DNA of 64,000 bases, from assembly GCA_013350335.1 (NCBI GenBank), contig CM023537.1, positions 47,056,111-47,120,110 of the forward strand, read 5' to 3'. Positions 2,407-27,008 of the stretch are shown here, one piece after another. The number at the start of each line of letters is the position of its first letter. Position 1 is the first letter of the stretch. Position numbers and translations under genes: made by a program. A model generated the notes under the pieces. The model saw only the letters and a program-made list of their open reading frames with translations, ran no database searches and was not told the origin of the DNA. Source of the DNA: Chimonanthus salicifolius (lineage: Eukaryota; Streptophyta; Magnoliopsida; Laurales; Calycanthaceae).

Positions 2407-2415
2407 CTATTATAA

Positions 2416-2689: not shown

Positions 2690-2698
2690 CCATTATAA

Positions 2699-7166: not shown

Positions 7167-7290
7167 GGCCGGCACGGCAAAGAAAAGGGAGGTTAATTGA
7201 ATTCCCGCCAGTTTTTATGAACTTCAATTGAAAATGAAAGTGCAATGCAACATGAAACAAGGCTGAGGAATGTATTGAGTACATGCTTGA

Positions 7291-7299
7291 TTTATATAG
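7291..7299 (-). promoter_or_regulatory. TATA box of gene 2, copy A
   Basis: CTATATAAA on the minus strand, 125 bp upstream of the gene 2 start codon. This is a normal plant core-promoter spacing. The same box is in copy B at 41808-41816. Confidence 0.55.
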
Positions 7300-7836
7300 A
7301 GGAGCATGTCCATAAAATGCCCTTCAATTGTTCAAGAAATTTCAGAACTGCCATTTCCCTTTGACCTGCAAAGGCAATAAAAGTAGAGATGAAAGAAGCG
7401 GAAAGGACCTAACGCGTGATGGGAAAGTCTCGGTTTGTACCCAAAAGAAAGAATCCTTGCTAAGGGTTATACTTTGACAGACAACGATAATTATAATATT
7501 AAAATAAATTTTAAATTTCAATATTTTTTATAAGAAAGGAAACTGATGTACTTTTTTATTATTTATATGATGAGAAGTGGACAAAATGACAAATCTAATA
7601 ACTTTTATTATAAAAAATGTCATCATTCATACTATTTTCCTAATGAAGCTATTATTAGTTTTTTGTTATTTTTTCTTACAAAAATGGTAATGTAAACCTT
7701 CAGCTAGAAATAAATGAAACAAATTTATCTCACTAAGTTACATGCTATCGAGTTTAAAATAATCTTTTATTGGATTGAACCCATTTCAATTGAGAATCAA
7801 ATGTTATTTATCGAAAGAGAGTAAAAGATAGTGATG
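7300..7836. other. Upstream region of gene 2, AT-rich, nothing else seen
   Basis: Non-coding and nearly identical in copy B. No element boundaries were recognised. Confidence 0.5.
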
Positions 7837-7844
7837 GTCAAGAA

Positions 7845-7995
7845 CAAAGGTGCAAAATTCGGTATCAGGTCAATATTATTCTCTCTTCTCACTTTTTTTT
7901 TTTTAAAAAAAAAGCCAATATCGACTGATATTATACTGCCGTGATATCGGCGTATCGGCCGATACGTATCATATAGGGTGATATTTGCACTCCTG
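7845..7995. mobile_element. Short hAT-like element (copy A)
   Basis: Begins CAAAGGTGCAAA and ends TTTGCACTCCTG (imperfect TIRs). Flanks GTCAAGAA (7837-7844) and GTCAGGAA (7996-8003) are an 8-bp TSD with one mismatch. The interior carries ATATCGGC/GCCGATA motifs, also seen in the hAT MITE at 13640-14061, so the two are probably related. Shared with copy B (42362-42572). Confidence 0.6.
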
Positions 7996-8003
7996 GTCAG
8001 GAA

Positions 8004-9425
8004 CATTTTTGGATAGTGGAAGTTTTGAATTCGAGTTTTATTCTATTTTAAAGAGTTATTCTCTATAAAGTTATTCGATACGTATAGTTGCACATTCCTT
8101 GAAGATTAGTCCGTTGTTCTAAACACCTTGATCATAACAAGAAAAAAGTAAAAGATTTTTAAATAAAAAAGAAAAAAAAGTAAATATTAAGTGGATGGCT
8201 TGTTTATAATATAAAGGTAGGTGGTCTTTTTGTCATTTAATAAAAGAAGAAAGAGCGGCCTGTGGAAGAAAAGTAAGCAAATTGCCAAGTCATGTGCCGT
8301 GTTGTCAAAGTCGTTTAAATTTCCCTTGGCTTTTTTCAATTCAATGCGCTTAGTATTTGACGGGAGTCCGTCACGGGACCCAGCTCGGCCGGCAAATAGC
8401 TATGGAAGACTTATCTTGGCCCAATAAACATTTATTACTTTTTGATATGATAATAACAGTAATATGATTTGGTTATACTTCTAATCATAACGGTGCTAAT
8501 ATTTAAAAGATATTATTCAAGATGTTCTTAGACTCATAATCTCCAATTAATGGTCCATAAACTCAACTGATTAACCTCTCGCATTAGGAAGTAGGAAGTG
8601 TCAAATTCGAACTCGTATGGTCTAAACTAGTTTACTCTAAAGACAGTCGGTATCACCTGTGAGGGTTTTACGCTGATTTCTTAGAATTTTCTACACGTAA
8701 ATTTAAAAAAAATAATTATTTTCACCCTATCAAGTTTCTCATTTGGGTTAGTCCGCGAAGGCTCTATGGATTTATGATCATTTAGATCTATCACGTTTTT
8801 TTCTTTAATTACCTCATGTAGTCTTGCATTTGGAAAATGGTTCCGTGAACCAGAGTAATCAAATTGGATCTTTTTCAATTTATAGAATGTTAGAGATTTA
8901 TCATGACTTGTCACATGCAAAGAAGAGTTTCTTTACTATTTGGGCCACTTAGCATGAAATAGATTTAAATGTCTAATTTTTCATATTTTATAAGTTCTTG
9001 GAGCTTTTGGCATGTTGATGACGTCCCTATTAGTATCAAAGAAGTACCACGCCTCATGCTCACATCTTTGTAATGTCAACTAATGAAAATGGTTACCTTC
9101 TCGAAAATGAGAGCACTTGCAGAGTGAGTCTTCATAAGAGGTAGACAAGAAAAATAGTAGTGATCTCTCATGTGATGAGCCATTACAATTAAAGTATGTT
9201 TAGATTCATCGATGATTTGTGACATATTTGATGGAGTTCAATCTGAGATACGAGCCAACCTAGCATGACATATGTTTAAAAGGTCTCATTATTTGTATTT
9301 CATTATCTCTAAAGTTTTTGACTGTATTAAATCCCTAACATAAAAAATAACCATCACAACGACTAATGATATAAATGGCCGAAGAATGAATACCCATAAC
9401 TTCACATTTGATTTTACTGAGCCAC
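8004..9425. other. Intergenic DNA with a SINE-like segment at about 8550-8710
   Basis: No gene seen. The ORF at 8221-8427 is open in both copies but shows no family features. At 8550-8710, CAACTGATTAACC is followed by TCAAATTCGAACTC, in the spacing of tRNA A and B boxes, and a T-rich tail precedes A-rich DNA. This may be an old tRNA-derived SINE; no TSD was found. Copy B has the same at about 43130-43290. Confidence 0.35.
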
Positions 9426-9430
9426 AAGAA

Positions 9431-9787
9431 TGTTGATATTTGTCTCTATTTAACTCAGCCCATAACTGAGTTGGTATTTATGGCTCTATTTAACTCAGCC
9501 CATAACTGAGTTGGTATTTATGGCAGTTGTATAACTGCCATTGGGTAGTAGCATAATTGTAGGAGCATTTCTTTTTTATAGGAAATAACTGTTGTATGAA
9601 AGTGAGAGGAAAGGAAGAGAGAAAACCAATGTATGAACTGCACATTGTACCTTCTCATTTTGATTTAGTGAAAACTCTTTCCTATGTTGCCCCTGGACGT
9701 AGGCATTTAGCCGAACCACGTGAATCTGCGAGTTATTTCATATGTGTGATTGATTTATTGATTGATTTTCCGCTGTAAAACTCAACA
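9431..9787 (+). repeat. 5' LTR of copia element, copy A
   Basis: Starts TGTTGATATTTG and ends AAAACTCAACA. It contains a tandemly doubled unit of about 40 bp, each with the hairpin AACTCAG...CTGAGTT. 357 bp long. Confidence 0.93.
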
Positions 9788-9789
9788 AT

Positions 9790-9800
9790 TGGTATCAGAG
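9790..9800 (+). other. Primer binding site, initiator Met-tRNA type (copy A)
   Basis: TGGTATCAGAG two bases after the 5' LTR is the usual plant copia primer site, complementary to the 3' end of tRNA-iMet. The next bases (AGCC) differ from copy B (CGCC). Confidence 0.85.
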
Positions 9801-10718
9801 AGCCAGGTTCATCGGATAGTCGGATTCGTCGTAGGATTTTCGGGCAAAATCACACAGATCGGCATCAAGCACATCAGCGAGCGTGGGTTCACTAGGTGAC
9901 CGGAAAAGGGTCCTCTGTATCAGAGATAAAGTCTCTCTCGGTTTGGATCAATAGATCCATCGGCTAAGGGTTTTCCCCAAAGCAACAGCGGCCAGACCTG
10001 GATCAGAGGGCTGCACGGAACAAGCCAGCCAGCCGGAGGCAGCATAGAGGGAAACAACCGCAGATTTGAGATCAGATCTGCAGTTTCCAAACCTAGAAGG
10101 CAGATCGTGGGGCTGTTTTCTTGAGAGAGCACCAATCTAGGCCAGATCGCTGGAGACCAAAACCTTGGGTCGAGCGAAGAAACCCAGGTGGCCAGCATCG
10201 CAGAGGGTTTTTTCTCGTCAGCAGCAGAAACCATTACCAGATCTCTTCATGGCGATGACAGCAGATCTGAAGGAAGAAAAAAGGGCCGATTTGCCCAGAT
10301 TATTGCAGCAGCCAGATCTGAGTACAGATCGTCGGTCAGAAGCGGCGTCGGCAAAAAGGGGTTTTTTCTTTCAACCCAAATCTCAGCCGGAGGAGAACGC
10401 CGGGAACAACAAGCAGCCGAGCACAGCGGCAGCAGCAGCAGAGGAGGAAGCCGTGTGCAGATTGCACGGACATGGGCAGCCGAAGAAAAAAGAAAAAAAA
10501 ACAAAGGGCTGCCAGTTTCTGCAAATCGCCAGAAGAAGAAGGCAGAGACGGCATTGCTGTCTTGCAAACTGAGAGGCGTGAGCACCTGCAGAAAAGTGAC
10601 GAGGGTTTTCTCTGTTTGAGAAAGGTTGGAAGAAAGCAATTTCAACGACAGATTTTAGAATCACAGGACCCCAACAGTGGCCGAGGCCATCGTCCCAGAT
10701 AGAAATCGTGCTTAGCTG

Positions 10719-11570
10719 ATGACAGAAGACTCGTCCCCTGAACCTTCAACCTTTAAGTCTTCAACTGTATCAAGAACTATGATTTCGAATGCAAAATTCG
10801 AGGTGGAGAAGTTTGATGGAACAAACAACTTCGGCATGTGGCAACGCGAAGTTATGGATGTCATGTATCATCAAGAGTTGGATATTGCTCTACAGGATGA
10901 GAAACCAATAGATATGGAGCAAAATGATTGGGTGAAGATGAATCGTCAAGCTTGTGGTACCATTCGGCTTTGTCTCGCCAAAGATCAGAAATATTTTGTT
11001 ATGAAAGAGAATTCAGCTAAGAAGTTGTGGGAGATGTTGCAAGACAAGTATATGACCAAGAGTGTTGAGAATCGTCTCTATCTCAAGAAAAGGCTCTTTC
11101 GGTTCGACTAGAAGGAAGGTACTTCTATGACTGATCACTTAACAGCTTATAATAAAATTCTTGCTGATTTGCAAAATTTAGATGTTGAAATTTTGGATGA
11201 AGACAAAGCAATATTGTTATTGAATTCATTGCTTGACCATTATGATCACCTGACTACCACCCTATTGTATGGGAAAAATGAGATTAAATTTGAACTTGTG
11301 GTGAATGCATTGATCAATAATGAATATCGAAAAAATGACAAACATGCCCAAAGATATTCAAAGTCAGAGGCTTTGACAGTTAGAGGCAGGTCACAAAACA
11401 AGAAATTTGGTAATCGGTTTAAGTCTCATTCAAAGACGAGAGGAGTATCAACATCATCTAATAGAAGAAATCTTGCTAGGGATGAGTGTACCTTTGTCGA
11501 CATAAAGGGCACTGGAAAAAATATTGTCCAATATTGTAAAAAAATGACAAGATGAATATAAAAGCAAATG
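10719..11570 (+). pseudogene. gag: copia gag (capsid + zinc knuckle), broken, copy A
   Basis: ATG at 10719. The capsid part has the usual copia gag opening FEVEKFDGTNNFGMWQ, followed by LWEMLQDKY and the MTDHLTAYNKILADL helix. A stop at 11109-11111 interrupts it. The frame resumes at 11127-11555. The CCHC zinc knuckle is destroyed here by a small frameshift (CTFVDIKGTGK), whereas copy B retains CTFCRYKGHWKKDC. The intact protein would form virus-like particles that package element RNA. Confidence 0.88.
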
Positions 11571-11887
11571 TTGTACATGTTATAGATGATGATACTGAGT
11601 TAGCACTGATTGGCTCATCATTGCCATACCATTCTGAGGAGTGGATTTTAGATTTGGGTTGCACTTATCATATGTGTCCCAACAGGGATTGGTTTTCCAG
11701 CTTTGAGGAGTTGGATGGTGGATCAATTTTTATGGGTAATGATAATACTTGTAAAACAAAAGGGATAGGTAAAATCCGTTTGAGATTGCATGATGGAGCA
11801 ATCAGAGTGTTGACAGATGTTCGATATGTACCAGATTTAAGAAAAAATTTCATTTCATTGGGTGCTTTAGAATCCAAAGGTTTGTAA
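11552..11887 (+). pseudogene. copia aspartic protease / pre-integrase region, broken, copy A
   Basis: Open frame with WILDLGCTYHMCPNRDWF, then LRLHDGAIRVLTDVRYVPDL, the copia protease signature. The catalytic D-[ST]-G motif reads DLG, so the Ser/Thr is lost. The frame stops at 11885-11887, just before sequence matching the start of the pre-integrase domain (QNNLYFLKGS). Copy B has a different change at the same motif (DSS). Confidence 0.85.
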
Positions 11888-12057
11888 ATTACATTTGAAG
11901 GTGGAGTTCTAAAAGTTGTCATGGGTGCATTGGTAGTGATGAAAGGTACCCAACAAAACAATTTGTATTTCTTGAAAGGAAGTACTATTGTAGGTGGGAC
12001 AGCGACAGTCACTGATAGTAAAGAGGATGTTGGTTCTGACACTATAAAATTTGACAA

Positions 12058-12606
12058 GCAGTGAAATGGAATTTACGATACATTCTGGGTACCGTAGATG
12101 TTGGTTTAATGTTTGAGCGGGATGATCAGTTTGGTCGACATGTGGTTGGTTATGTGGATTCGGACTATGCTGGTGATTTGGATAAACGCCGATCTACTTC
12201 AGGCTATGTGTTTACACTTGCTGAAGGGCCAATGAATTGGAGGTCGACGTTACAGTCTACAGTTGTTCTTTCTACTACTGAGGCAGAGTACATGGCAGTG
12301 ACAAAGGCCATTCGTGAGGCCATTTGGCTACATGGGTTGCTTCAGGACTTGGGTCTTATATAGAAGCACGTGGATATCTATTGTGATAGTTAGAGTGATA
12401 TTCCCTTAGCAAAGAACCAGGTTCATCATGCACGAACAAAGCACATCAATGTTCATTTCCATTTTGTTCGAGAGGTTGTCAATGAAGGTGTTATTCTCCT
12501 TCAGAAGATTGGAACTGCAGATACTCCTGCAGATATGCTGACCAAGGTGGTAACTGGGATCAAGTTCAAGCATTGTTTGGACTTGATCAACATCCTGCAT
12601 ATTTGA
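12058..12606 (+). pseudogene. copia RNase H domain, two in-frame stops, copy A
   Basis: Begins AVKWNLRYILGT directly after the deletion junction and runs GYVDSDYAGDLDKRRSTSGY, LSTTEAEYMAV and IYCDS to ADMLTKVVTG, all typical of copia RNase H. The block is 183 codons with stops near 12361 and 12392. It is out of frame with the upstream protease region, so no polyprotein can be made. Confidence 0.9.
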
Positions 12607-12759
12607 GTACCTTCGAGTGCGTGGCACCTTCGGGTGCATTTGAAGGTAGCACAGTTTGTTTGTTCACTTGTGTTTGTTGGGCGTGAGATTTTCATGCCAA
12701 GGTGGACATAGTTGAGAGGTGAGGAGGAGATGGCCTGCAAATCTCGCCAAGGTGGAGAT

Positions 12760-13117
12760 TGTTGATTTTTCGCTCGATTTAACTCAGCCCATAACTGAGT
12801 TGGTATGTATGGCTCTATTTAACTCAGCCCATAATTCAGTTGGTATTTATGGCAATTGTATAACTGCCATTGGGTAGTAGCATAATTGTAGGAGCATTTC
12901 CTTTTTATAGGAAATAACTACTTGTATGAAAGTGAGAGGAAAGGAAGAGAGAAAACCAGTGTATGAACTGCACATTGTACCTTCTCATTTTGATTTTGTA
13001 AAAACTCTTTCCTATGTTGCCCGTGGACGTAGGCATTTAGCCGAACCACATAAATCTACGTGTTATTTCATATGTGTGATTGATTTATTAATTGATTTTC
13101 AGCTGTAAAACTCAACA
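12760..13117 (+). repeat. 3' LTR of copia element, copy A
   Basis: Starts TGTTGATTTTTC and ends CTCAACA. Preceded by the purine-rich tract AAGGTGGAGAT. It matches the 5' LTR with scattered substitutions. Confidence 0.93.
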
Positions 13118-13639
13118 AAGAACACGTCGGTTAATAGTTTTTCTGCTTGGTGTAGCCATGTACTTGAGAGTCTTAACAAGGCATGCATATGTTTGTGGGT
13201 GTTGCCTTAATGTGAGGTAATTGGATGTGTCTGCATGCATGCATGCATTTGAACTAACCATCCAAATTTTCTTTGCATGAAAGATGAGCCTATTTCTTCT
13301 ATAGTAATGGCCAACTAAGTTTAGGAAGGACATCTAGATACATGCACATGCTATTAATGTGTACTGCCTACTGGACCCCGAAAACATTAAATTAATAATA
13401 ATAGTAAAAATAATACTTAATAGAGAATTACTATTTGAATTTAAAATAAATTAAAACATTTTGTTTATTTAATTAAAATAGTTAATGAAAAGATTTTCAA
13501 ATAATAATAATGACAAAGTAAAATAATGAGCATAGATGGTGTGGGCATCTAAAATATTTTTTTAACTTTAGGGGATAAAAAAAAGTTCAGCCAAATTTTC
13601 ATCCGTATTGACTATATTAGTCAAATTCTGTAACTGGAC

Positions 13640-14061
13640 CTAAGGTTCAAATATCGGCCGATACATATCGTATCGGCCGATATATATCGGTTTTTTTAAA
13701 CCGAGTAATATCGGCCGATACGACAAGTATCGGCCGTACATACCGAATATCGGTCACAATATCGGCCGATATTCATAAATATCGGTATTTAAATTTTTTT
13801 TTTTAAAACACCGATACGGTTTTTCGCAGTTTTTCGCGGTTCAGGGTTTACAGTTCTCACGGGTGCTCACGGTTTTTTGCAGTTTTTTGCGGTTTTTCAC
13901 GGTTCGTCACGGTTTTTCGCGGTTTTTTCACAGGTTCTGATATTGGAGGACAGAGAAAATGCCGATATCGGTATGAGAGATAAAATTATTGGCCGAAATA
14001 TCGCCCATATCGCATATCAGCCGATATTTACATATCGGCCGAGCCGATTTTTGAACCCCTG
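13640..14061. mobile_element. hAT MITE, 422 bp, copy A only
   Basis: Flanked by a perfect 8-bp TSD, AACTGGAC (13632-13639, 14062-14069). Copy B has a single uninterrupted AACTGGAC. Left end CTAAGGTTCAAA, right end TTTTTGAACCCCTG. The interior is built from ATATCGGCCGATA palindromes and G/C-rich GGTTTTTCGCGG repeats. No coding capacity; the ORF at 13877-14062 is chance. Confidence 0.9.
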
Positions 14062-14069
14062 AACTGGAC

Positions 14070-17000
14070 TATACCAGCCATATTGACTAAATCAGCAAAA
14101 TAAATATCAAATTTTTTTATATTTGACCAAAAAAAAAATTCCCTGCAAAATATTGATATTACTATGTTTTAGTCAGACAAAATTTCATATTTCAGCCAAA
14201 ATCTGTAACTTAGATCACTACTCAAATTCTTTGGTTTTTTTCAGTAATGGATAAATTTGTAATTAGCTTAAAATTTAACAATTTCTTATATTTAAATTAA
14301 AATTTAGTTTCCATAATAATCAAATCTTCTATAATCCAATTAAATTGATTTTTAGTCTCATATTCATGCGACTTTACTGATATACAGACCCATTTTATTG
14401 GACTAGGCCCCTCCTGATTTGATTGATTCCCGTAGTAACTCGGCCAAATTCTTTTACTTTCATCCAATTCCAAATAAGACTCGGTCGATTCCACCTGAAA
14501 CTCAAAGGAAATATTTAAAATCTTGACTCGGACGAACTCGCATAAATTTTCTAAGATTTTAAATTTTGATTTTATCTCTAAGTTGTTAGTTGAATCACAT
14601 GACATAACATATTAAAATCTTTTTTATAGACGAGTTTGGGTAGTGTATTTGTATATCTCGAATCAAGTCGGGTTGGAAAAAATAAACCCTCATGAAATTC
14701 GGATCGGGTCGGATTGAGAAATTTAAAAGCAACCCTATTCGATCCAATCTGACTCGATCCGATTGCACCAAGTTATAAAACAACACTGGGGTTAAGCGGG
14801 TCAGAAATTTGAGTTAAGTCAAGGTTGAATAATTTGGATCAGCAATTTGCATCAGGTCTAATCGGATTTAATAATTTTTTACATGGGTTGAGTTTATAGA
14901 CCTATTACATTAACTCAAACTCAAAGTAGCTCCCACATGTGGTGCTCCATTCTAGCTAGGCACATAATGGTGATTTCAGAGCATAACCTTAAGTGCCCTA
15001 AAAGCAACCATCCTACATGTCAATTAAAATTAAAATTAAACTGCTAAATTAAAGTAATTGACTAATGAGATTCTCACAACCTAACACGAATTGCATGACA
15101 TTGACGATGCGAAATTAATCTAATTGACTAATGAGATTCTCAAGTGCTGGTGTCCAACGCGTAGAGACAAATATTTGTCTTTTCCATAAACTGAGACTAC
15201 AACTAAATATTTGTGGAAGGATTTGAATGTTACATTGCAACCTACGATTCTCTGTCTTTGACCATCTATTAATCTAATCATCTAATTACGCTTACTTGGT
15301 CAATGGTTCAAATTGTTTACTGAAACCTGGTTAGAAATGTCTTTCTTAGAAGGAGAGAGAGTTCTAGAAAGCTAGTGGACCATAGAGAATTATGAAAACT
15401 TTACCATATTCGAATTCAATGGATTGCAGGAAAGAAATCAAAGGGCTAAGGTTGTCCTCTTAGTTGTATTTTAGTCTTGAAGGAAGTCTCATTGGGCCCT
15501 TTTATGTAAATTATGCTAGGCCCTAACATAATATTCAATGACTACTGTATGTCTATCTACTATAGAGATTTAAACCGGATGAGGGCACCATCTATATTCA
15601 TATGATAAAACTGAACTTTGAAGAGTCCAATTTTATATGTTCCATCAGCTTTTGAATTTTTAACATATTGATAAGATACCTAACAATTGATATTAAATTA
15701 GGTACCATGTCCCATATTTAACGACAACCACATAATGTCTATTTGATCTAGAGTGAGAATCGCTATATAGTGAGCGACCAAATCATGTTGAGAGAAAAGT
15801 ATAATAGTGATATATTATATAACGAGTTATTACCGAAGAAGAGTATTGAGATTCATCAATGACTTATCACGTGTCTGATAGAGTTTGATCGGAGTTGTGG
15901 GCCAACTTAATATAATATATAGGATTAAATTACTTTACATAATTTATAAATTCTAAAGTCTTTTTATGTAATTGTTATTCACATCAAATTTAAAAAGACT
16001 TAGCTGTAGATTGAGAAGACGAAACAAAGAAAATGTAGAGTAGCTATCTTGTTTTAGTCGGTGAATGCAACAAGGAAAAAGAAATCATAATTAAAATTAA
16101 AAGAGATAAAAGACAAAATGACCTTTTAAGAGGAAGAGGCATGAATGGTTCGTGCCTGAGATAAGACACTGACTAGTGAGAGAATGACGGCAAACTGGTG
16201 TGGCCCAAGTCAAACATGGAGGGCTTGAAGTACTTAACAGCCTCACGAGTCTTAGTATCTCATCCACAGCGCTTTGGATTAGGGGTGACACCTCTAAATG
16301 CCTTGTTCTTGCATCATCACTACATCATTCCATCATATTTTAGTAATTCAGTAAAATTAAATTGATTTAATTGAACTAATTTCAAAATGACAGTAATAAC
16401 CGTCATAAAATTTTGAGTATAGTCACTTATGTAAAAAAATTGATTCACATATACATGTAGTTGTTATGCTTGTATAGATGAACCGATACGTATAGACCAC
16501 AACAGGCCAATGTGCACCCTCTGTCACTCATTTTGTGTCTTGAAAGGAAAACTTATGAACAGAATAAACAATCAATAGAAATCATTTGTTTTTAGTGCTT
16601 TGATAAAAAGCAGAAGATATAAAGCATTGATTTATATGAAAACTTATGAATTCTATAAGTGGAAAATCTAGAGCCGAATTGTTTATTATATTTTTTTTTT
16701 AATTTTTTCTAGATTATAGTAATTTATGCCAAGTCTATTTTGACGGTTAATTCTTTAAATATTTAAGAAAAATGGTTTTTAACTAGAGATGATACGGGCC
16801 TGTATCATGGGCCAATGGATATGGGCTTTCGAGTACATTGGATATGCATTGAAAACCTATTTGGACCCCAGTTTTTAGCCTTTGGATAAGGACCCATGAG
16901 AAACAATTTATCATTCTCCCCATCAAGGAGAACTCAACCTCAAGTTCTTGAAATTTTCTACCTGAATTAGAACCTCTTATATTGATGAGGCCTGAACGAA

Positions 17001-17431
17001 AATATTAAAGAATCTTAATCAAGTTTTCTACAATGGCAAAGTATGGCAAAAACGGCAAATATTAGAGTTGTCATCTAACTAATTCAGTGTATATTCTTTA
17101 AACTCGAGGGCAAGTTTGTTCTCTTTTTTTTAACATTGATTGACTCATTGTATTATATATATATATATTTCATTCTAACATGCTAACATGTTATCTACCA
17201 AGTTCAATTTTAGAATTTTCCACTTTTTGCTGTTATTTTTTTGTATTTCTAAACTTTCTACAGTTTCTGGGTGTCTCCCCCCCTACAATCTTCTCCCCTC
17301 GTGGATAAATCATTTCCTTGACAGAATCATGATTTTGTATACTGCAGGAAGACCAAAATGATATTACTTTCTTTTCTTTTTTTCTTGTTTTCATTATAAT
17401 AATGACCAGTTTTATAATCAAGTATCAGAGA
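14070..17431. other. Intergenic DNA, no supported gene
   Basis: Nearly identical in copy B (55056-58466). Two minus-strand ORFs stay open in both copies (14297-14605, 102 aa; 16097-16291, 64 aa) but show no family motif. At 14640-14890, CGGGTCGG-rich sequence looks like a decayed relative of the AGGGCTGC MITE. A (TA)n run at 17154-17168 is short here and greatly expanded in copy B. Confidence 0.55.
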
Positions 17432-18301
17432 ATCGACGGTTCTTATATATTAAGTTCGCATTCATTCAAATGAATCATCCCATTCATTCGAATGAATGCT
17501 TGAAAACGTGAATTCATTCGAATGAATGGGCTGATTCATTCGAATGAATGCATCAGAGACTGCCTGAGAATGACAGTACAGGCATTCATTCGAATGAATG
17601 CACGTTTTCAAGGCATTCATTCGAATGAATGGGCTGATTCATTCTAATGAATGCCTGGACTGTCATTTGGAGGCAGTCTCTGATACATTCATTTAAATAA
17701 ATCATGTCATTCATTCGAATGAATGCCTTCAAACGTGCGTTCATTCGAATGAATGGGCTGATTCATTCGAATGAATCAGCTGAACCAGAGAAACTGTCAT
17801 TCTGAGGCAGCCTCTGATACATTCATTCGAATGAATCAGCTGATTCATTCGAATGAATGTACGTTTGAAGGTATTCATTCGAATGAATCAGTTGATTCAT
17901 TCGAATGAATGCTGTGTATACGAATGAATTGAATGAACGGGTTGAACAGTATTTCGTGTTACTGTTCAGCCCATTCATTCGAATGAATGCCCAGTCATTC
18001 GAATGAATGGATTCATTCGAATGAATGCCAAAATGAACTGGACATTCATTCGAATGAATCCATCAGCGTATACGAATGAATGTTCATTCGAATGAATGGG
18101 CTGAATAGTATTCCGTGTTACTGTTCAGCCCATTCATTCGAATGAATAAAAAATGAACTGGGTATTCATTCGAATGAATGCCAAAATAAACTGGGCATTC
18201 ATTCAAATGAATGGAAGCACGGGGGTAAAATCGTAATTTCACTCGAAAATCCGATTTCGGGTGTGTAGAAGCAGATTTTCCGAGTGTGTGCAAGTGCTCC
18301 C
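17432..18301. mobile_element. Truncated MULE end with TTCATTCGAATGAA palindrome array, copy A only
   Basis: Some 40 copies of the palindrome TTCATTCGAATGAA, alone or paired, spaced by short linkers from 17460 to 18215. They are followed by a unique end of about 85 bp. Read inward from 18301, that end starts GGGAGCACTTGCACACAC and continues with GAAAATCTGCTTCT, ACACACCCGAAATCGG and GTGAAATTACGATTTTACCC. This parallels the terminus of the full MULE at 20221 (GAAATCTGCTAGG, GACACCGATTTCC, GGAAATTACCATTCTGCCC). The other end is missing, and about 1.1 kb of flanking DNA present in copy B (58467-59580) is also missing here. I infer that a deletion removed the left part of a MULE plus its flank. Confidence 0.6.
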
Positions 18302-18617
18302 TTATCGAAAAACAATAACAAATTCAAAGCTGTATTGCTGTTGTTGTCAAATCTTCAAGTTGAATTTTAGTAAAACGCGCCAGAGGCAGTTGTCGGAGTA
18401 AATGTCCAACGGTCCTGACTGCTCATTCTCCCCGGTAGATGTGGCCGGGAGGGCGATGTAGACCCCGAATAGGTACTCCATTTTGCGAAGGTAGCCATCC
18501 CATTCTTGCCTATTCAACATTGTCTGTTTTATTCATTTTAGTTGACATCGTTGCCCATTTATACTTAGTATTTATTTGGACATAAAATGGTCAAAAATGA
18601 ATTACTGAAAAACACAG

Positions 18618-20211
18618 AAATATATATTTCTGTTCGCAAATCATAGTTTCGGAAAGTGTGTAATTTAGAAAGGATTTTCTACATGTGTCAATTTTACTGT
18701 TTGGTATAAGAATAATATATATTTTTTTGTGATAGAGAATTTCAAGACTTTCACCTCTTTCTTTGTATAAGGGAATTGGGTAAAGTTTTGAATGCACGCA
18801 GACCTCTTCAAGCCATGGATATCGGGTTACTATGGAATTCGAACTTTAAACCTTTACTACAGGAACAATATCTGACAAAGAACATGTAGCACAACTAGTA
18901 ACGGCTCATTGTCATAGTCTAAAAGTTGTGGCTTCGAAATCCCATAGACGTCACATTCGCAGTCGGCCATGGTGACAATTTACTAAATCCAAATATAAAA
19001 GACCAAGATTAAATTGGTGGGATAAATGGCTATATGATGATGATGTGAGAAATATCTATGTTGATTCATAAATAATATATATATTTTTTTTTACTTATTG
19101 TCTCCTCAGTGAGTAGGTTATAAATCAGTTCTGCTTGCTTCTATATGATAATGTTGATGAGAAAAATATAAATTATAAATTTATATACATTATATGTAGG
19201 GTTGCAACTCGGGTCGGGTTGAGAAGATAAAAACCCGCATGGAATTCGGGTCACGTTGTTTTGAGGATTTTGCAAGTTAACCCGATCCGACCCAACTAAA
19301 ATTAAGTTAAAATGGGTTCAAAACATGGGTCAGGTCAGAATTCGGGTTGATTTGGATTAGATTTCGTGTCAGATTAGGTTGTGAATTTCGGGTCAAGAAT
19401 TTGGATCGGATCGGGTCGGATCGGATTTCATATATATCAACTAGGGTTGGGTTGGATTGGGTTTTAAGAAATCCGACCCGCTTGACCCGAGTTGCAGCCC
19501 TAATCATATGGTTAATTCAACCTAGTATTATGTATTGAGTGATCGTTTCAAAGCAAAAGATGTAAGTTGGGAGTGTAATTGGAATAGATTTTTCTTGACC
19601 AACCTTAATCTAAAATTCATGAGTTACGTGAGGTCAAATTGGTTCGTTGGATTATTGATGCTGTGTAATTGTGTGTGTAGGTTGGACCTTAGACCATAAG
19701 AACAAGTCAAGTCAGATTAGATCATAGGTTTTGTTAGGTTGATAATGTGTCATGAGTTGATTGGTCAGATTGGATAATGGATGAAGTTGATTGGGTCATT
19801 TGTAATAAATCTGGTTACAGGAACCAAGTTGTGTGAATGGACCCCGCCATGTTTTATGTTTGGCATCGCTAGTCCATGTGTTGGATAATACACCTTAAAT
19901 TTCATAAATCGTTGGATCCCTTAGGAATTCATATAAAAATTATTAAAGTGATAGTAATTATTATTTTTTAATAGACAGTGTCCGTGTTGTGCCTTGAGAA
20001 GGGAGTGGGCCACTAACAAACATCCTTTTGGAAGGGTAAAAATTAATTTACTAATCCAGGCCTAATGGGGATTGTTGTTTTTACACTATTATAAGCTAAT
20101 TAATTATTGGACCCAGACATGTACATGACGGGTCTAGGTTGAATGACATGCATCACTGCTTTTAGTGTCGGCCTATATGTCGGGGATTAAGTTATCAAAT
20201 TTGTCAGAGGA
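18618..20211. other. Spacer DNA left of the MULE, no gene seen
   Basis: Not present in copy B. It contains the AGGG-type MITE at 19198-19501. Near 18885-18960, a stretch has tRNA-like A and B boxes (TAGCACAACTAGTAACGG, GGCTTCGAAATCCC) and may be a SINE head. The remaining sequence is AT-rich and unrecognised. Confidence 0.5.
19198..19501. mobile_element. MITE with AGGGTTGCAACTCGGGT termini
   Basis: Begins AGGGTTGCAACTCGGGTCGG and ends CCGAGTTGCAGCCCT, the same TIR family as 4728-5092. It is shorter and diverged internally. It lies in the spacer, so it is an independent insertion. Confidence 0.65.
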
Positions 20212-20220
20212 CTATTTTTT
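20212..20220. repeat. 9-bp target site duplication, left of MULE
   Basis: CTATTTTTT immediately before the GGGTGGCAATATAG terminus; repeated exactly at 27000-27008. Confidence 0.95.
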
Positions 20221-20809
20221 GGGTGGCAATATAGACACCGCAGAAATCTGCTAGGAGACACCGATTTCCGAAATTTGAGTGGAAATTACCATTCTGCCCT
20301 TTCCGCGCGAAATCGTGCGATCGGTTCTGCAACGCCATTTCGCGTCGATCGATCGATCTGAGGCGTATACGCTCGATCTGAGGCGTATACGATCGATCGA
20401 TCGATCCGACAGTTCATTTTCGAATCGATCGATCGATCATAACACGGGTTTCAGTCGATCGCACGGTTCCATGGGATCGTGCGATCGATTTTAACTGAGA
20501 GGTCGACGGTTTGACAGTCGACCGCTCCCACCAAGATCGATCGCACGATTGTATGTGATCATGCGATCGACTGTGACCCATTCAAAGATCGATCGCACGA
20601 TTCTATCTGATCGATCGATCGATTGTTTGTTAGGTCAAGATCGATCGATCGATCACTGTGATCGTGCGATCGATCTTAACTGAGAGCTCGACTGTCAGAC
20701 AGTCGACCTCTCATCTCAAGATCGATCGCACGATCACATATGATCGATCGATCGATTTTCTGTTTAGGGCAAGATCGATCGATCGATCACTGTGATCGTG
20801 CGATCGATC
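20221..20809 (+). repeat. Left TIR of MULE with GATCGATC palindrome array
   Basis: The outer ~110 bp is unique sequence (GGGTGGCAAT... to GGTTCTGCAACGCC). The rest is built from GATCGATCGATC and GATCGTGCGATC palindromes and larger palindromes such as GACTGTCAGACAGTC. It matches the right TIR inverted, with few substitutions, but lacks one repeat unit of about 83 bp. It ends where the two arms diverge before the TATA box. Confidence 0.92.
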
Positions 20810-20816
20810 GATCAGC

Positions 20817-20826
20817 TATATATATA
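20817..20826 (+). promoter_or_regulatory. TATA box for MULE ORF 2
   Basis: TATATATATA just inside the left TIR, about 305 bp upstream of the 588-aa ORF start. It is followed by a TTCTTCTTCTCG-rich plant-type leader. Confidence 0.6.
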
Positions 20827-21130
20827 ACCGATCGATCTTTTCGCCCTTTCCTGCGATTCAACCCTCGAAACCGAAGACCCTTTCTCTTCTTCTTCTCGAA
20901 CGATCGATCGACCCTTTTCCTCTTCATCAAATCGAGCGCACGATTCTCCAAATCGTGCGATTTGCCGTCTCCAGAAACCCTTTCTTTCTCCGATTTCATC
21001 TTCGGATCTCCGATTTGCCCTCTCCGGAAACCCTCTTAATTCGTCTTCCTCGCCGGATTTCTGGAAACCTTTTCTTGCCTTTCTCTGATTTTGTCTTCCT
21101 CGCCGGATTTCCTTCACAGCACTCCTTCAC

Positions 21131-22897
21131 ATGGAATCCAAAGGGTGTACATCGAGAGGGAGAAAGATAAAGGTACCGGCTTCATCTAGAAGGAAGAGAG
21201 CGAGATTGACGGAGACACCACCTAGGGAGACAGAGACCTTCGACCCGAACCACTTCAAGTCTTTGGAAGCCGCCACACTATACCAAGAGGCTTTGTACTC
21301 TCGGCCGATGATTTATGGTAAAATCATGGACCTAAGCTTTTTTCCTGCATTTGAATTAAGAATCGACGGGTATATTTACAGACTTGGATGGGAAGGTTTT
21401 TTGGGAATAAAAGAAGATTTTTACCCAAAATTGGTGAAGGAATTTTATGCAAATATGTCGGAGGACCGGGCGAGACACTCTATAAAATCCAAAGTTAGGG
21501 GGACAGAAATTGATATTTCAACTGAGGCACTGGACAGAATGTTTGGGTTTCCCAGTGCCACTATTTCGAAATATGAACCAAATCCATGGCCCACCGATGT
21601 TGACGGATTCGTTCCCTCGGAGGCTATGACCCAATTGTGTGGGCGAAGTGATGGTGCCAGAGGAGATAAGATCGGGCTTATGGAGCTAACCCTAGAGGCC
21701 CGAATTATATATTACATTATTAGGAAGAATATTTTACCTAGAAAAGGGCTTAGTAATCAAGTGCCGTATTTTGATAGCTTCTTGATATGGTGCATCATGA
21801 ATGGGAAGCAAATTGATATATCCTTCATCATAATAAAACACATGGTTGCATCTCGTAAGATTAGAAAATGTAGCCTTCCATATGGTTTATTTCTGTCTTA
21901 CTTGTTTCGATTTTGCAGAGTCACCCTCCCCCCTGATGAGAAAATAGAAATGAAGAAAACCAATATATTCGATGCGTTTACTTTGGGCAAGATGGGATAC
22001 AAACTCGACAATGTACGTTGGGTTCCCAAAGTAGAACATCGTCCTATTGAGGTTGAGGCACTTGAGGAGGGTGACATACCTGAAGTTGGGGGGACTGAGG
22101 CGCCTGAAGTTCAGGGAGCGGAGGCACCTGAAGTTGGGAGTGGTGAGGCACATGATACAGGAGTCAGTACTATGCTGATTCTTGACAGCATAGAAAAATT
22201 GAATGAAAAAATTGATGTAAAATTTGACGAGATTGAAGAAAGGCTTATGGGCAGGCTTGAAGGGATGATTGATGAAAAATTAGGTGAGATGGAAGGAAGA
22301 CTGATTGGAAGGCTTGAGGGATTGGTTGACGATAAATTGGCTCAGATGGAAGGGAGGATGAATGCCACAATTGATAAGAAAAATAGTGAGTTGGTCGGAA
22401 TGACGATGAGAAGGCTGAATAATTTGGAGACTCATACGGTAGACTTAATGAGAAACTCTGTTCTTTTATTGCAAAAAGGAGGAGTAAATTCACAACTTGG
22501 ACGCGATTCGGGAACCGGGATCATCAGATGTATGCTAAATGAGAAGAATATAAAGAAATCATGGGGGATAGCCTCTTCGTCCACTAACACGAGTCAGACT
22601 CTCTCGACTGACATCCCACAGTCTCGTCCGTCTGGCCCCATTCATCCTCGTCCGACAGGCCCCACTCGTCAGGTGCGTTCGACTGTCCCCAAGCATAGTG
22701 CGACTGGACGTCGTCCATTGGCACCAACACCTCCTGATCCTGCACCAGTTCCTTCTTCATCGGCACCAGCACCTCCTGATCCTGCACCAGTACCTTCTTC
22801 ATCGGCACCAGCACCTCCTGATACTGCATCTGCCCCACCTTCTACATCTGCACCTGCTTCTACATCTGCTCCAACTCCTGCTCATACACTCTTTTGA
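21131..22897 (+). CDS. MULE accessory ORF, 588 aa, putative plant transposon protein domain
   Basis: Intact single-exon frame from ATG 21131. Residues 1-40 are basic (RGRKIKV, RRKRAR), a likely nuclear signal. Residues about 55-280 match my recollection of the 'putative plant transposon protein' family (Pfam PF20167): LVKEFYANM near residue 100, then VRGTEIDISTEALDRMFG, then hydrophobic helices with SNQVPYFDSFLIWC and LPYGLFLSYLFRF. Residues ~305-345 are acidic with repeated EAPEV. Residues ~350-430 are coiled-coil with three similar units (EMEGRLIGRLEGLVDDKL). Residues ~490-588 are Pro/Ser-rich with tandem PPDPAPVPSSSAPA units. No catalytic motif is seen. In position it corresponds to mudrB of MuDR. 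It may assist transposition or bind the transposase; that is inference. Confidence 0.8.
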   Translation: MESKGCTSRGRKIKVPASSRRKRARLTETPPRETETFDPNHFKSLEAATLYQEALYSRPMIYGKIMDLSFFPAFELRIDGYIYRLGWEGFLGIKEDFYPKLVKEFYANMSEDRARHSIKSKVRGTEIDISTEALDRMFGFPSATISKYEPNPWPTDVDGFVPSEAMTQLCGRSDGARGDKIGLMELTLEARIIYYIIRKNILPRKGLSNQVPYFDSFLIWCIMNGKQIDISFIIIKHMVASRKIRKCSLPYGLFLSYLFRFCRVTLPPDEKIEMKKTNIFDAFTLGKMGYKLDNVRWVPKVEHRPIEVEALEEGDIPEVGGTEAPEVQGAEAPEVGSGEAHDTGVSTMLILDSIEKLNEKIDVKFDEIEERLMGRLEGMIDEKLGEMEGRLIGRLEGLVDDKLAQMEGRMNATIDKKNSELVGMTMRRLNNLETHTVDLMRNSVLLLQKGGVNSQLGRDSGTGIIRCMLNEKNIKKSWGIASSSTNTSQTLSTDIPQSRPSGPIHPRPTGPTRQVRSTVPKHSATGRRPLAPTPPDPAPVPSSSAPAPPDPAPVPSSSAPAPPDTASAPPSTSAPASTSAPTPAHTLF

Positions 22898-23064
22898 TAT
22901 TCATATGTAACATCGTTTGTCAATATAGTGAATGTTTTCTTTTTATTACATCGTTTGTGAATCTCAAATGAACATAGTGAATGATTTCTTTTTATGAACT
23001 ATTTCATCTATTTGAATGAACATGGTGAATAGAATGGTTTGTTTGTAAACAACTGAATGAACAT

Positions 23065-23620
23065 GAGACCCTTTGAATGTCAGTAAATACGGGAGCAGTG
23101 AATGGTCTGTCACTAAATATGGGACCCTTGAGTGGTCTGACACTAAATATGGGTTTTGTGGTTTGTCGCTAGACATGGGACCTTTGAGCGGTATGTCTCT
23201 AAATATGGGACCTTTGAGTGAATTGTCGCTAAACATGGCACCTTTGAGTGGTCAGTCAACAAGTATGAGACCTTAGAAATCAGATTGCCTGATTAAATAA
23301 GAGTTTTAATCATTAGTGAGAAAATTTGTCAAGGAATGCTGGAGTAAACGACCAATGCTTGTTTAATCCAGTATTCCTTGACAAAATTCCTCACTAATGG
23401 TTAAAACTCTTTTTTAACCAGGCCATCTGATTTCTAAGGTCCCATACTTGTTGACTGACCACTCAAAGGTGCCATGTTTAGCGACAATTCACTCTAAGGT
23501 CCCATATTTAGAGACATACCGCTCAAAGGTCCCATGTTTAGCGACAAACCATAAAACCCATATTTAGTGAAAGGCCCACGTAAGGGTCCCGTATTTCGTA
23601 ACAAACCACTCAGTGCTGGA
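23065..23620. repeat. Foldback of about 0.55 kb built of ~30-bp units, between convergent MULE genes
   Basis: The left arm (23065-23350) pairs with the right arm (23360-23620) about a centre near 23355. The inner stem is GTCAAGGAAT...ATTCCTTGAC. Each arm holds about seven degenerate units of the type TAAATATGGGACCTTTGAGTGGT...TGTCGC, read in opposite directions in the two arms. It sits between the stop of the 588-aa ORF (22897) and the stop of the transposase (23745), so read-through from either gene would give a long hairpin RNA. It may be a MITE inserted in the element, or an intrinsic 3'-end/insulator structure. Confidence 0.85.
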
Positions 23621-23744
23621 TTTTTTTAAAAAATAATTGTTGCTTGAATACATACTTCAGTACATCGGAATTAAAATTAATACAATTTTTTGGAAATGAA
23701 ATACATTCTTGCAACTAAATACATGAAAAAATGAAAGACATCCA

Positions 23745-25961
23745 TCACTGATTCCACCAATGCTGTAATTCGTCAGGATCTCTAACATCACTAGAGGTAT
23801 ATGTCGAATCGTCATAGAAGCCATAAGAACCAATCGGCTGTGGAAAAAGGAGTACGTTTTAGTATTGTTCACCTTATTTTATATGAATGAAAATGTAAAT
23901 ATGTATTTTATGTAAACGAAACTTAATTCAGAAAATTGAGACAAAGTCGTTGCTTGCGATTCAAGGTAATAATCATTAAATGGTTGAGGTAAAGCATTTA
24001 AATCTACACTACAGGATGACTGTGCAGCACTTCTATTCGGACATGTTCTCTTCGTATGACCAATATTTTTGCATAACCCACATCTTCTTCCAGTGAATTG
24101 ATTCTCTACAATCTCAAACGCAGAAGGATCTCGTCTTGTAGATGTTTGACCCTTTGAGGTGTTTGAACCTGGATGACGTCCTCTGCTGTACTGCATAATA
24201 GGTTGGCTGATATGCATCTCATCACTGGCAAGATCTTGGATATGATCTCGGAGCTCCTCTTGATCAAATGTGGACAAGTTTCCATATGTTTTCTTAATGT
24301 TTTCCCAGTGTACATCTAATTCATCTCCGGGTCGATTTATTTCAATGTTCAAGTCGTCAAATAAAATCAAATCGATTCTCCATTGTGGATGGATCTGATC
24401 CAAATGTAACTTGTTCATAAATTGCATTCTGTGAGCACAAGGTAAACCCATGGAAGCTGTAAACTCATGTGTACAATTGGGTAAAAATGACATGTTTATG
24501 AGCATAACATATTGCTTGTAAACCTCAGATAATGCAAATTGTGATATTCTGCCGTTCACTTCATCAAAGAAAGGAATCGAAACAGTAAGAGCAAACCGGA
24601 TTTTCTCATCCTCCGTTTGAATCTTGAACTCTTGAAACTGATTTTCAATTGCATGGGATATCTTCCTTCGAACAACATATAGATCGCTAGTGGAGTTAGC
24701 TATATATCGTTTTAACACTGAATGTGCATTTTCAACCCTTGAAGTTGCTGCATTTTGAAAATGTAAATTCCAACCAATCCACGCCTTGACGAATTGCTTT
24801 TTATGTGGGATCCATGTGCGTCTTATATAATTCACTGCATCCGAATAATGTCGAAAATCTTGTTTGAATGCCTCAAACGCTTCATTAAATACAACTTCGG
24901 ATGGAGACTCGACGCATTCATTCCATTGAGTCAAAAATGCATTCCATTCTTCCACTTTATTGAAAAGAGGCTTACAATGAGAAAGAATATTCTTGTTGAT
25001 GTGCCAAATACAAAAGATATGTACAGCATTAGGGAACTCTGAATCAATGGCATTCTTAAACGCCAAATCTCTATTTGTCAAAAAAACTTGTCGATCATGA
25101 TCTACTCCTAATACTTTCTTGAACATCTGTAACGCCCAGTACGTAATCTTCAAATTTTTCATTCCTCATAAATGCAAAGCATGAGTAGAAAGTCTTGTTG
25201 AAACTTGTGATACCAACGATATTAAGCAATGGCATATGATATCTGTTGGTTTTGTAAGTGCAATCCATGAGAAATACATTATTATAGGTCTTCATAAGTA
25301 CAACTGACAGTGGATGTGCAAAGAGAAGATGAGATAAATGACCTTGACTATCATAGTTGAGAAAATATTGGTAACCACCTACTTGAAGATCTTCTAACAA
25401 GGCTTCAATTGAAGTACGACCTCTAAGTTGCTCTTTTCGAACCGATGACAAAAAATTATACAAATCAGTAGATGATACTCCAATCTCTGGATTCTCGTTT
25501 CGAAGGGTCGTCATAATTTGCCGGGGTGGTACATTGCTGTTATGCATTTCAATGATCATTCTCTTCTCCTCATCTGAAAAACACCTTGTACTAGGATGAC
25601 CTACTAATACGCTCGTCAGATCATGATTGTGCTCCACATCTTTTATAGTCAACTTCCATAACCCATCAACAATTTGTTTCCCTCTCACTTCAAATGGACA
25701 ATTAACAAGGCGAGAATATGTTTTCTTCTTCCTCTCATCATCTTTCAAATTAACTGTGCTACGATATGTACCCCCTCTATCGCAACAAAAAATAACTACA
25801 TTGCTTCTATTGCGTGACCTCTTAATGGTAGCTACAAATCCTTGCGCAATGGAAACCTCCTTATCATGCTTCACTAAATCGTCACGACTTGAAAAACACC
25901 TCTCAACAAACTCATTGTCAACAATATCATTCTCAACAATCTCATCATTTTCACAATCTAT
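23745..25961 (-). pseudogene. FAR1-type MULE transposase, frameshifted and active-site altered
   Basis: Domains in order: FAR1/WRKY-GCM1-like zinc finger (CCDRGGTYR, CPFEVRG, HNHD; 25620-25790); DDE core with first Asp in LMDCTYKTN (codon 25263-25265); the TNRDLAFKNAI block, where families usually have T/S-D at the second Asp but Asn stands here (25073-25075); CIWHI; the Glu in SRVENAH (24731-24733); SWIM-like GLPCAHR; and a C-terminal CCHC knuckle CGLCKNIGHTKRTC. A one-base insertion within GTACGTA at 25139-25145 shifts frame in the core. A phase-0 intron (23838-23917, GTTTAC...CCACAG) joins a last exon 23745-23837 ending DPDELQHWWNQ. No in-frame ATG precedes the zinc finger. ATA at 25959-25961, before DCENDEIVEN, may be a lost ATG, because upstream is an ATG-free CT-rich leader. 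Confidence 0.88.
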
Positions 25962-26302
25962 AATACTAATTTCAAAGAAATTTTGAAAGTCTTGGGTTTG
26001 AGAAAGAGTTACCTTTGATTCCGGTTCGGAGATTGAGAGAGTAACTTCTGAAAGAGTATCTTCAAATAGCGGAGTGGTTCGTTTTTTAAAGCGGGTTTGG
26101 GGTTTCAGGGAAAATAGTTTGGAAAGGAGTTTGAGAAAGAGGGGTTTGAGTGAGAGGGGTGTAGAAAAGGCTTTGAGGAAGAAGATTTCAAAATCGGGGA
26201 GGTTTTGAAGGAGAAGATTTCGAAATCGGGGTTCTGAGGGACTAGGGTTTCGAAAGGGGCGAGATGAAAACGAAAAATGAGAGTGCAGAGGGGAGCGATT
26301 GA

Positions 26303-26312
26303 ACTTATACTT
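26303..26312 (-). promoter_or_regulatory. Probable TATA box of the MULE transposase
   Basis: AGTATAAGTT on the minus strand just inside the right TIR. It is followed by about 310 nt of ATG-free, CT-rich leader with AAACCCTAG, before the coding frame. Confidence 0.45.
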
Positions 26313-26327
26313 AGTTTCGCGTGTTAA

Positions 26328-26999
26328 GATCGATCGCACGATCACAGTGATCGATCGATCGATCTTGCCCTAAACAGAAAATCGATCGATCGATCATATG
26401 TGATCGTGCGATCGATCTTGAGATGAGAGGTCGACTGTCTGACAGTCGAGCTCTCAGTTAAGATCGATCGCACGATCACAATGATCGATCGATCGATCTT
26501 GGCCTAAACAGACAATCGATCGATCGATCAGATAGAATCGTGCGATCGATCTTGAGATGAGAGGCCGATGGTTTGACAGTCGACCTCTCAGTTAAGATCG
26601 ATCGCACGATCACATACAATCGTGCGATCGATCTTTGAATGGGTCACAGTCGATCGCACGATCACATACAATCGTGCGATCGATCTTGGTGGGAGCGGTC
26701 GACTGTCAAACCGTCGACCTCTCAGTTAAAATCGATCGCACGATCCCATGGAACCGTGCGATCGACTGAAACCCGTGTTATGATCGATCGATCGATTCGA
26801 AAATGAACTGTCGGATCAATCGATCGATCGTATACGCCTCAGATCAAGCGTATACGCCTCAGATCGATCGATCGACGCGAAATGGCATTGCAGAACCGAT
26901 CGCACGATTTCGCGCGGAAAGGGCAGAATGGTAATTTCTACTCAAATTTCGGAAATCGGTGTCTCCTGGTAGATTTCCGCGGTGTCTATATTGCCACCC
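26328..26999 (-). repeat. Right TIR of MULE
   Basis: Inverse of 20221-20809 with scattered differences. It has one additional unit of about 83 bp (GATCGATCGCACGATTG...AACTGAGAGG type), so the internal repeats change copy number between arms. All palindromes carry CpG sites. Confidence 0.92.
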
Positions 27000-27008
27000 C
27001 TATTTTTT
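27000..27008. repeat. 9-bp target site duplication, right of MULE
   Basis: CTATTTTTT, identical to 20212-20220. Confidence 0.95.

Follow-up and report, generated by a model that had tools for sequence, protein, structure and literature searches.

A two-gene Mutator-like element of Chimonanthus salicifolius with a PF20167 partner gene and palindrome arrays that differ between families

The stretch of DNA analysed here (the window) covers 64,000 nucleotides of the Chimonanthus salicifolius genome (assembly GCA_013350335.1, contig CM023537.1, forward-strand positions 47,056,111 to 47,120,110). It was confirmed to contain, at 20221-26999, a complete Mutator-like element (MULE) of 6,779 bp, in which an open reading frame (ORF) with a PF20167 domain and a convergent transposase gene point inward between long terminal inverted repeats (TIRs) enclosed by a target site duplication (TSD). 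The PF20167 ORF, hereafter the partner, is present throughout the family of this element (family 1) and carries a sign of constraint, and the palindromic motif arrayed in the TIRs has been exchanged between family 1 and a sister family with the same layout. We hypothesize, tentatively and at somewhat less than an even chance, that the partner is a dimeric DNA-binding cofactor that acts at the palindrome arrays of its own family only, in a lineage of two-gene, probably Hop-like MULEs. The features of the element are as follows.

20212..20220, no strand: left TSD copy, 9 bp, CTATTTTTT
20221..20809, plus strand: left TIR, ATCGAT/CGATCG palindrome array
20817..20822, plus strand: TATA box, 8 bp inward of the inner end of the left TIR
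21131..22897, plus strand: partner gene, 588 aa (596 aa in most full-length family copies)
21380..21910, plus strand: PF20167 (Transposase_32) domain, residues 84-260
22181..22480, plus strand: coiled-coil-like stretch, residues 351-450, 19-aa units
22688..22894, plus strand: Pro-rich tail, residues 520-588
23077..23618, no strand: long palindrome between the 3' ends of the genes, main arms 221 bp, 92% complementary
23879..25165, minus strand: C-terminal part of the transposase, with the second half of the MULE domain and a zinc-knuckle-like motif below the Pfam cut-off
25095..25895, minus strand: N-terminal part of the transposase in another frame, with an AFT/FAR1-like DNA-binding domain and the first half of the MULE domain
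26304..26309, minus strand: TATA box, 19 bp inward of the inner end of the right TIR
26328..26999, minus strand: right TIR, same palindrome array as the left TIR
27000..27008, no strand: right TSD copy, 9 bp, CTATTTTTT

The element and its two genes

A preliminary description, made from the letters of the window, had proposed a MULE with TIRs inside one 9-bp TSD, and this was borne out: the TIRs could be aligned and the flanking 9-mers are identical, an agreement that two random 9-mers from the window would reach with a probability of 4e-5. The element begins with GGGTGGCAATATAG (20221-20234) and closes with the complement of this sequence (26986-26999). A PF10551 domain, a TSD of 8-11 bp and TIRs that are often long characterize the MULE superfamily, and all three are found here; the order inward from each end is TIR, TATA box and then one gene per side. 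Promoters had also been placed in the TIRs. The TATA boxes are indeed present, but not within the TIRs: they are found 8 and 19 bp farther inward than the inner TIR ends. The two TIRs (approximately 590 and 670 bp) differ at 11 of the 595 sites compared, in two segments with a 6-bp overlap, and the remaining difference between left and right is in the number or length of the repeat units. Identity of MULE TIRs at insertion is not a given. The palindrome CGATCG occurs 25 times in 20221-20815, 25 times in 26316-26999, three times in the adjoining leader and not at all in the rest of the 64-kb window. The CpG observed/expected ratio is 2.0 in the TIRs versus 0.57-0.73 in the inner parts and the flanks, and the TIR as single-stranded DNA folds back strongly (z -15.7).

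The partner was recovered as an intact ORF of 588 aa, as described earlier, and the profile search of 21131-22897 (Pfam scan) gave a PF20167 ('Putative plant transposon protein') score of 94 bits against a cut-off of 45 (E 1.3e-26). The longest ORF among 1000 mononucleotide shuffles of the same interval was 175 aa. Against the same cut-off, the domain scored 95.9 bits in family 2 and 91.1 bits in another family-1 copy. The coiled coil and the Pro-rich tail were found as well: the 19-aa units correspond to a 57-bp period with 2.5 copies in Tandem Repeats Finder (TRF), 3.75 was the strongest hydrophobic period tested, and 22 of the 69 residues of the tail are proline. A match of the coiled coil to HSBP1 (E 0.69) was taken as noise. 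The GC content of the partner ORF is 0.45, versus 0.36-0.37 in the transposase. In Pfam scans, DUF1985 was not matched in the partner up to E 1 (whole protein) or E 10 (residues 1-340), and neither PMD nor Ulp1 was matched. A word search of a protein database with the 588-aa ORF gave no relatives among 7,998 candidates, the words probably being spent on the low-complexity tail, and a search with residues 30-310 gave none among 750 candidates, which is a limit of word searching. As the same database yielded 18 relatives of the transposase, including two named plant proteins, the gap for PF20167 reflects that limit. No match was found in the viral contigs searched, and the solved structures searched gave nothing better than E 0.22.

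The transposase is broken in the window copy. Its MULE domain is split across two frames near 25095-25165 (PF10551 in the Pfam scan, E 2.4e-11 for one half and 1.1e-9 for the other; E 5.4e-26 in the family-2 transposase), and in the open frame with the DNA-binding domain the first ATG does not come before 25559, with none in frame upstream. An unbroken transposase frame of 693 aa is found in 11 of the 38 family copies described below, so the breaks are attributed to the window copy. Candidate DDE catalytic residues were noticed by eye in the transposase. The assignment to the FAR1 type stood in part: the MULE domain is there, but FAR1 (PF03101, E 2.9e-5) scored 25.1, below its cut-off of 28.1, whereas the AFT profile (E 5.6e-7) scored 30.2, above its cut-off of 21.6. 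PF03108, the N-terminal profile of MuDR-type transposases, had no match in the window transposase in Pfam scans up to E 10. Membership in the MuDR family was rejected, because no MuDR-type DNA-binding domain was matched and AFT/FAR1 was matched instead; of the MuDR layout proposed in the preliminary description, the two convergent genes remain, but the transposase is of another type. Against a database of 5.8 billion sequences, the transposase gave 18 matches, led by a MULE of Rhynchospora (39%) and followed by an unnamed JGI protein (37%), proteins of Entrophospora fungi (31-35%) and a Rhododendron protein (36% over 55% of the query), with more distant relatives in Puccinia and an oomycete. 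Judged by this mix of hosts, the lineage is probably Hop-like.

Family 1 in the genome

The end sequence of the family was found at 114 places in the genome (852.6 Mb searched), and its reversed control at 0. Among 100 listed places of the 114, 39 convergent end pairs were seen by eye, from which one 13.7-kb pair was left out; the resulting 38 elements, i.e., the window copy and 37 others, favour well-kept copies because both exact ends were required. It had been expected that intact family members carry both genes transcribed toward each other, and feared that the 588-aa ORF might be absent from the others. In this search, made with the termini named beforehand, the partner and both transposase pieces were matched in 38 of 38 elements, always convergent, and no such absence was found. 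The transposase matches in all 38 also rule out a Pack-MULE, which carries gene fragments without a transposase of its own. A TSD of 8-10 bp flanks 37 of the 38 elements (18 exact with 9 bp, 16 exact with 8 bp, one exact with 10 bp and two with one mismatch), and one element has none; two of the exact TSDs are runs of A and are little informative. CGATCG is present at both ends of all 38 copies. The partner ORF is open over at least 500 aa in 19 copies and the 693-aa transposase in 11, and both are full length (596 and 693 aa) in six.

By comparing the 19 copies whose partner ORF reaches 500 aa or more and the 11 copies with a 693-aa transposase, pooled ratios of nonsynonymous to synonymous substitution (dN/dS) of 0.49 and 0.59, respectively, were obtained. 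In the partner, the ratio was 0.38-0.42 over residues 1-450 versus 0.87 in the tail. Substitutions confined to a single copy appear neutral in both genes (partner: 56 synonymous and 127 nonsynonymous, omega 0.92; transposase: omega 1.23). Substitutions common to at least two copies arose in source lineages, and those of the partner (17 synonymous and 22 nonsynonymous, omega approximately 0.52, p 0.035) suggest that this ORF is under constraint. As the omegas of the two genes are similar, the constraint on the partner appears comparable to that on the transposase, with modest numbers behind the comparison.

Pairing of the two genes and sister families

For the whole genome, only the best-scored candidates were compared: 150 of 1,549 first-look candidate places for PF20167, 98 of 1,338 for the transposase and 119 of 1,616 for the partner. 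All 150 scored PF20167 places were above the cut-off. One of the 119 scored partner matches lies within 7 kb of 71 of the 98 scored transposase matches, and all 71 pairs are convergent; pairing was seen for 45 of 52 transposase matches of at least 92% identity and for 12 of 15 of 88-91%. Furthermore, 37 of the 150 scored PF20167 places have one of the 98 transposase matches at a distance of no more than 6 kb, all of them convergent, and random shifts give 0.16 on average.

Family 2 (L046 and L047) is represented by an element of 7,747 bp on contig 1 (6642250-6649996) with an exact 9-bp TSD, TTTTCATAA, and TIRs that are 95.6% alike over 1,046 bp. Its partner is a PF20167 ORF of 684 aa, 40% identical to that of family 1 (51% in the domain), and its convergent transposase has an unbroken frame and is 71% identical to that of family 1 (68% in the DNA-binding domain and 78% in the core). 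The sampled place L049 is also family 2. Family 3 (L050 and L051), read in pieces, has a partner and a transposase piece pointing back at it. The start of its PF20167 ORF is 43% identical to family 1 over 53 residues and 47% identical to family 2 over 43, and its transposase piece is 71% identical to family 1 and 81% identical to family 2. The convergent orientation proposed for the window copy is therefore found there, in all 38 elements and in families 2 and 3. From the 38 of 38 elements, the 71 of 71 convergent pairs and families 2 and 3, it follows that PF20167 is a regular second gene of this MULE lineage in this genome, which supports the earlier proposal in part, the accessory function of the protein being putative. 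The expected link of PF20167 to MULE TIRs was seen in families 1 and 2 of the window's genome, the sole genome covered.

When families 1 and 2 are compared, the motif of the array has been wholly replaced and the plan kept, i.e., many CpG-centred dyads that run up to the TATA box and end there. The palindrome of family 2, ATTCATTCGAATGAAT, has 52 exact copies in a 10-kb stretch, packed in the ends; its 10-mer CATTCGAATG is found in 0 of the 38 family-1 copies, and CGATCG occurs once in the family-2 stretch. The upstream array of family 3 consists of TTCGAA-centred dyads, mostly imperfect, with one exact ATCCTTCGAAGGAT. A TCGA-centred dyad is among the commonest 6-bp palindromes of each of the three families (ATCGAT, TTCGAA and TTCGAA, respectively). 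As families 2 and 3 share the TTCGAA core and differ in its flanks, a clear exchange of the motif is seen only between families 1 and 2.

The outer ends of families 1 and 2 are still alignable, and their common end string AAATTACNATTCTGCCC occurs at 519 and 525 places genome-wide (reversed control 0). Among the 22 top PF20167 places of contig 1 below 53.2 Mb, an upstream end lies within 4 kb in 12 (random expectation 0.08), ends are present on both sides in 10 of these 12, and 15 of the 22 have an end on at least one side. The 53 Mb of contig 1 hold 28 convergent end pairs, 13 at a distance of 5-9 kb and 15 at no more than 3 kb. The short pairs (e.g., 9057645-9059016 and 10990326-10991697 on contig 1; four measure 1,330-1,355 bp) are probably non-autonomous relatives.

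Other features of the element and its surroundings

The palindromic stretch at 23077-23618 is 542 bp long and contains 30-bp tandem units, with an RNA fold of -408 kcal/mol (z -36). Matches of 255-526 bp to it were found in 37 of the 38 family-1 copies, and at this position family 2 has just a 290-bp gap between the genes. A part in the machinery was ruled out for it because it is absent from family 2, which makes a nested foldback sequence the more likely reading for family 1. If either gene were read through across this stretch, the transcript would form a long hairpin, from which small RNAs might arise.

Beside the best PF20167 match of the genome (L048, contig 9, 48630292-48630825, upstream side), no exact repeated palindrome and no CpG array was found in 1.5 kb, and AT-rich TATAC/GTATA-like dyads were seen by eye approximately 1.2-1.35 kb before the ORF start. 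Another family, a retroelement and a host gene are the candidate readings of this place.

In the window, positions 1-18618 and 27616-59884 are copies of one segment, with main blocks that are 89-98% identical and in the same order, and with insertions. Judged by this alignment, the flanks are a tandem segmental duplication with the MULE between its copies, and the duplication stops short of the insertion site. A Copia-type gag lies at 52036-52779 (PF14223, E 3.7e-30), and the DNA around it is 96% identical to the left-side copy at 9731-13624. Gene fragments with pentatricopeptide repeats (PPR) were found at 60124-61743 on the minus strand (PF13041, E 2.9e-28).

Proposed role of the partner and alternatives

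We hypothesize that the two proteins would act at different parts of the TIR. Following established MULE biology, the transposase would cut and join at the conserved outer end. The PF20167 protein would dimerize via its coiled coil, and the dimer would bind the CpG-centred palindromes arrayed beside both TATA boxes, by analogy with VANC and the motifs of VANDAL elements. As the arrays are family-specific, the partner may read the palindrome of its own family; ATCGATCGATCGAT would then be the putative target of the family-1 protein and ATTCATTCGAATGAAT its counterpart in family 2. The bound partner would keep the promoters of its own family open or control them. Array and partner would change together and the transposase slowly, again as the VANC analogy suggests. 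A dimeric DNA binder would be expected to combine a coiled coil with a palindromic site. Given a slow transposase and outer end, a fast partner and a replaced array, the simplest reading would be a dimeric reader that follows its own target.

Several observations weigh against this hypothesis. DNA binding by the PF20167 protein is putative and drawn from the analogy, no known DNA-binding domain was found in the ORF by Pfam scan, and a structure prediction of residues 1-340 made without relatives was uninformative (mean predicted local distance difference test, pLDDT, of 36) and was not used. The arrays could instead be bound by the transposase, whose DNA-binding domain, at 68% identity, is not constant between families 1 and 2 either. 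The constraint test of the partner is weak at p 0.035, and the substitutions of the transposase in at least two copies (omega 0.61, p 0.21) are non-significant. In the best-scored lists, just 14 of 31 transposase matches of 78-87% identity have a scored partner nearby, and 27 of 98 scored transposase matches are unpaired, including three examined elements that do hold both genes. Moreover, 48 of 119 scored partner matches have no scored transposase within 7 kb, and 113 of 150 PF20167 places, which include further families, have none of the 98 transposase matches within 6 kb. Seven of the 22 contig-1 places have no exact end motif on either side, one of these being family 3. The 10-mer CATTCGAATG occurs once in the array of family 3, and the TTCGAA core is common to families 2 and 3. 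The 11 mismatches between the TIRs of the window copy are transitions without exception (p 0.011, given a transition share of 0.66 between the flanking duplicate segments) and five of them are CpG losses, the expected mark of methylated, silenced DNA, so the window copy has probably been methylated. In addition, the evidence base is a single genome.

Papers are cited below by PMC number for the passages covered. The first alternative, which we consider rather unlikely, is that PF20167 is a regular second gene with a MURB-like role, i.e., a helper of integration or of the transposase, and that the transposase itself binds the arrays. It fits the AFT/FAR1-type DNA-binding domain of the transposase, the known function of Mutator TIRs as transposase binding sites and promoters (PMC3310237), and the requirement of mudrB for new insertions in maize (PMC9168764, PMC6446971). 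However, 68% of that DNA-binding domain has been kept between families 1 and 2 despite the wholly exchanged array motif, and the outermost end, where the transposase must act, is the conserved part.

It is very unlikely that the PF20167 ORF is a captured passenger, e.g., from an Athila-type retrotransposon, which hitch-hikes without a role in transposition. Sequence capture is frequent in MULEs, PF20167 was reported from a sunflower Athila element (PMC11728184), the GC content of the ORF is unlike that of the transposase, and the constraint test is the weak one given above. On the other hand, all 38 elements have PF20167, as do two sister families, in which the partners have diverged to approximately 40-45% identity (in the third family, over 53 residues only); a partner so diverged and yet present across families was most likely there before the families split. 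The signs of constraint on the ORF also argue against a passenger. An Athila long terminal repeat (LTR) retrotransposon was rejected as the home of the window ORF, because self-comparison of the window gave no LTR pair around it; in families 1 and 2, TIRs, a TSD and a transposase surround the PF20167 ORF in place of LTRs.

Least probable of all is that the arrays are satellite-like expansions produced by slippage or hairpins and that the motif changed without a binding protein being involved. The unequal repeat number of left and right TIR, the strong foldback of the TIR and the mostly imperfect dyads of family 3 would fit this. Against it, a TCGA-centred dyad is among the commonest 6-bp palindromes in all three families, the arrays of families 1 and 2 extend exactly as far as the TATA box, and they are kept at both ends in 38 of 38 family-1 copies.

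Relation to known systems

The element resembles maize MuDR in its two convergent genes, long TIRs and 9-bp TSD. It differs from MuDR in the AFT/FAR1 match of a transposase without a MuDR DNA-binding domain in Pfam, and in its PF20167 partner. The Hop group is group 35 of PMC6446971, where the plant sub-group is listed with one ORF and TIRs of 30-220 bp. The likeness to it lies in the weak FAR1 match and in the hosts of the closest transposase relatives found, which are plants, fungi and an oomycete, as in the table for this group, whereas the elements studied here have two ORFs and TIRs of 589-1046 bp. Antisense or convergent partner genes are ordinary in MULEs, and mudrB, PMD (in most members of several plant groups), Ulp1 and ORFR of Abermu are described as such (PMC6446971, PMC5418596, PMC2528002, PMC9168764). 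MULEs with PMD, Ulp1 or ORFR share with the present element a second gene that is often antisense to the transposase; the partner domain here is PF20167, with no PMD or Ulp1 match.

According to the passages covered, PMD is found in Gypsy retrotransposons as well as in MULEs, and its use against silencing was suggested by Ikeda et al. (PMC5418596). PF20167 too is found in both a retrotransposon and a MULE. The preliminary description had treated it as an orphan domain, which can no longer be said, as it is already in print for the 3' additional ORF of a sunflower Athila element (PMC11728184); that ORF lies in an LTR retrotransposon, whereas the one studied here lies between MULE TIRs. None of the papers listed by searches of 5.39 million open papers was seen to link PF20167 with MULEs, with subscription papers, preprints and Repbase outside the scope. 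Thus, the convergent two-gene layout is not new; what appears to be new is the presence of a PF20167 partner across the lineage and the exchange of the palindrome arrays.

VANC of VANDAL elements was reported to bind short motifs in family-specific tandem repeats and to remove methylation (PMC5735166, PMC10398659). VANDAL elements and those described here are both MULEs with an extra gene and with short repeated non-coding motifs that differ between families. The differences are that binding and demethylation are experimental for VANC, whereas our system is known from sequence alone, that the TIRs of VANDAL elements are degenerate and those here are long, and that the partner ORF has no DUF1985 match. 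We consider it unlikely, though worth stating, that PF20167 proteins form a second, independent VANC-like class, in which a dimer would read its own CpG-centred palindrome and shield or activate its own family alone, and in which palindrome and protein would switch together in a new family. The PF20167 genes of Athila retrotransposons would then serve a retroelement in the same way. With the present elements, PF20167, a large unexplained protein family, gains a second home and a testable job, and a partner class is added to the few known for MULEs (MURB, PMD, Ulp1 and VANC). Taken together, conserved transposases, differing palindromes and fast-changing partners would be a natural experiment for studying how a DNA reader encoded by a transposon could change its target.

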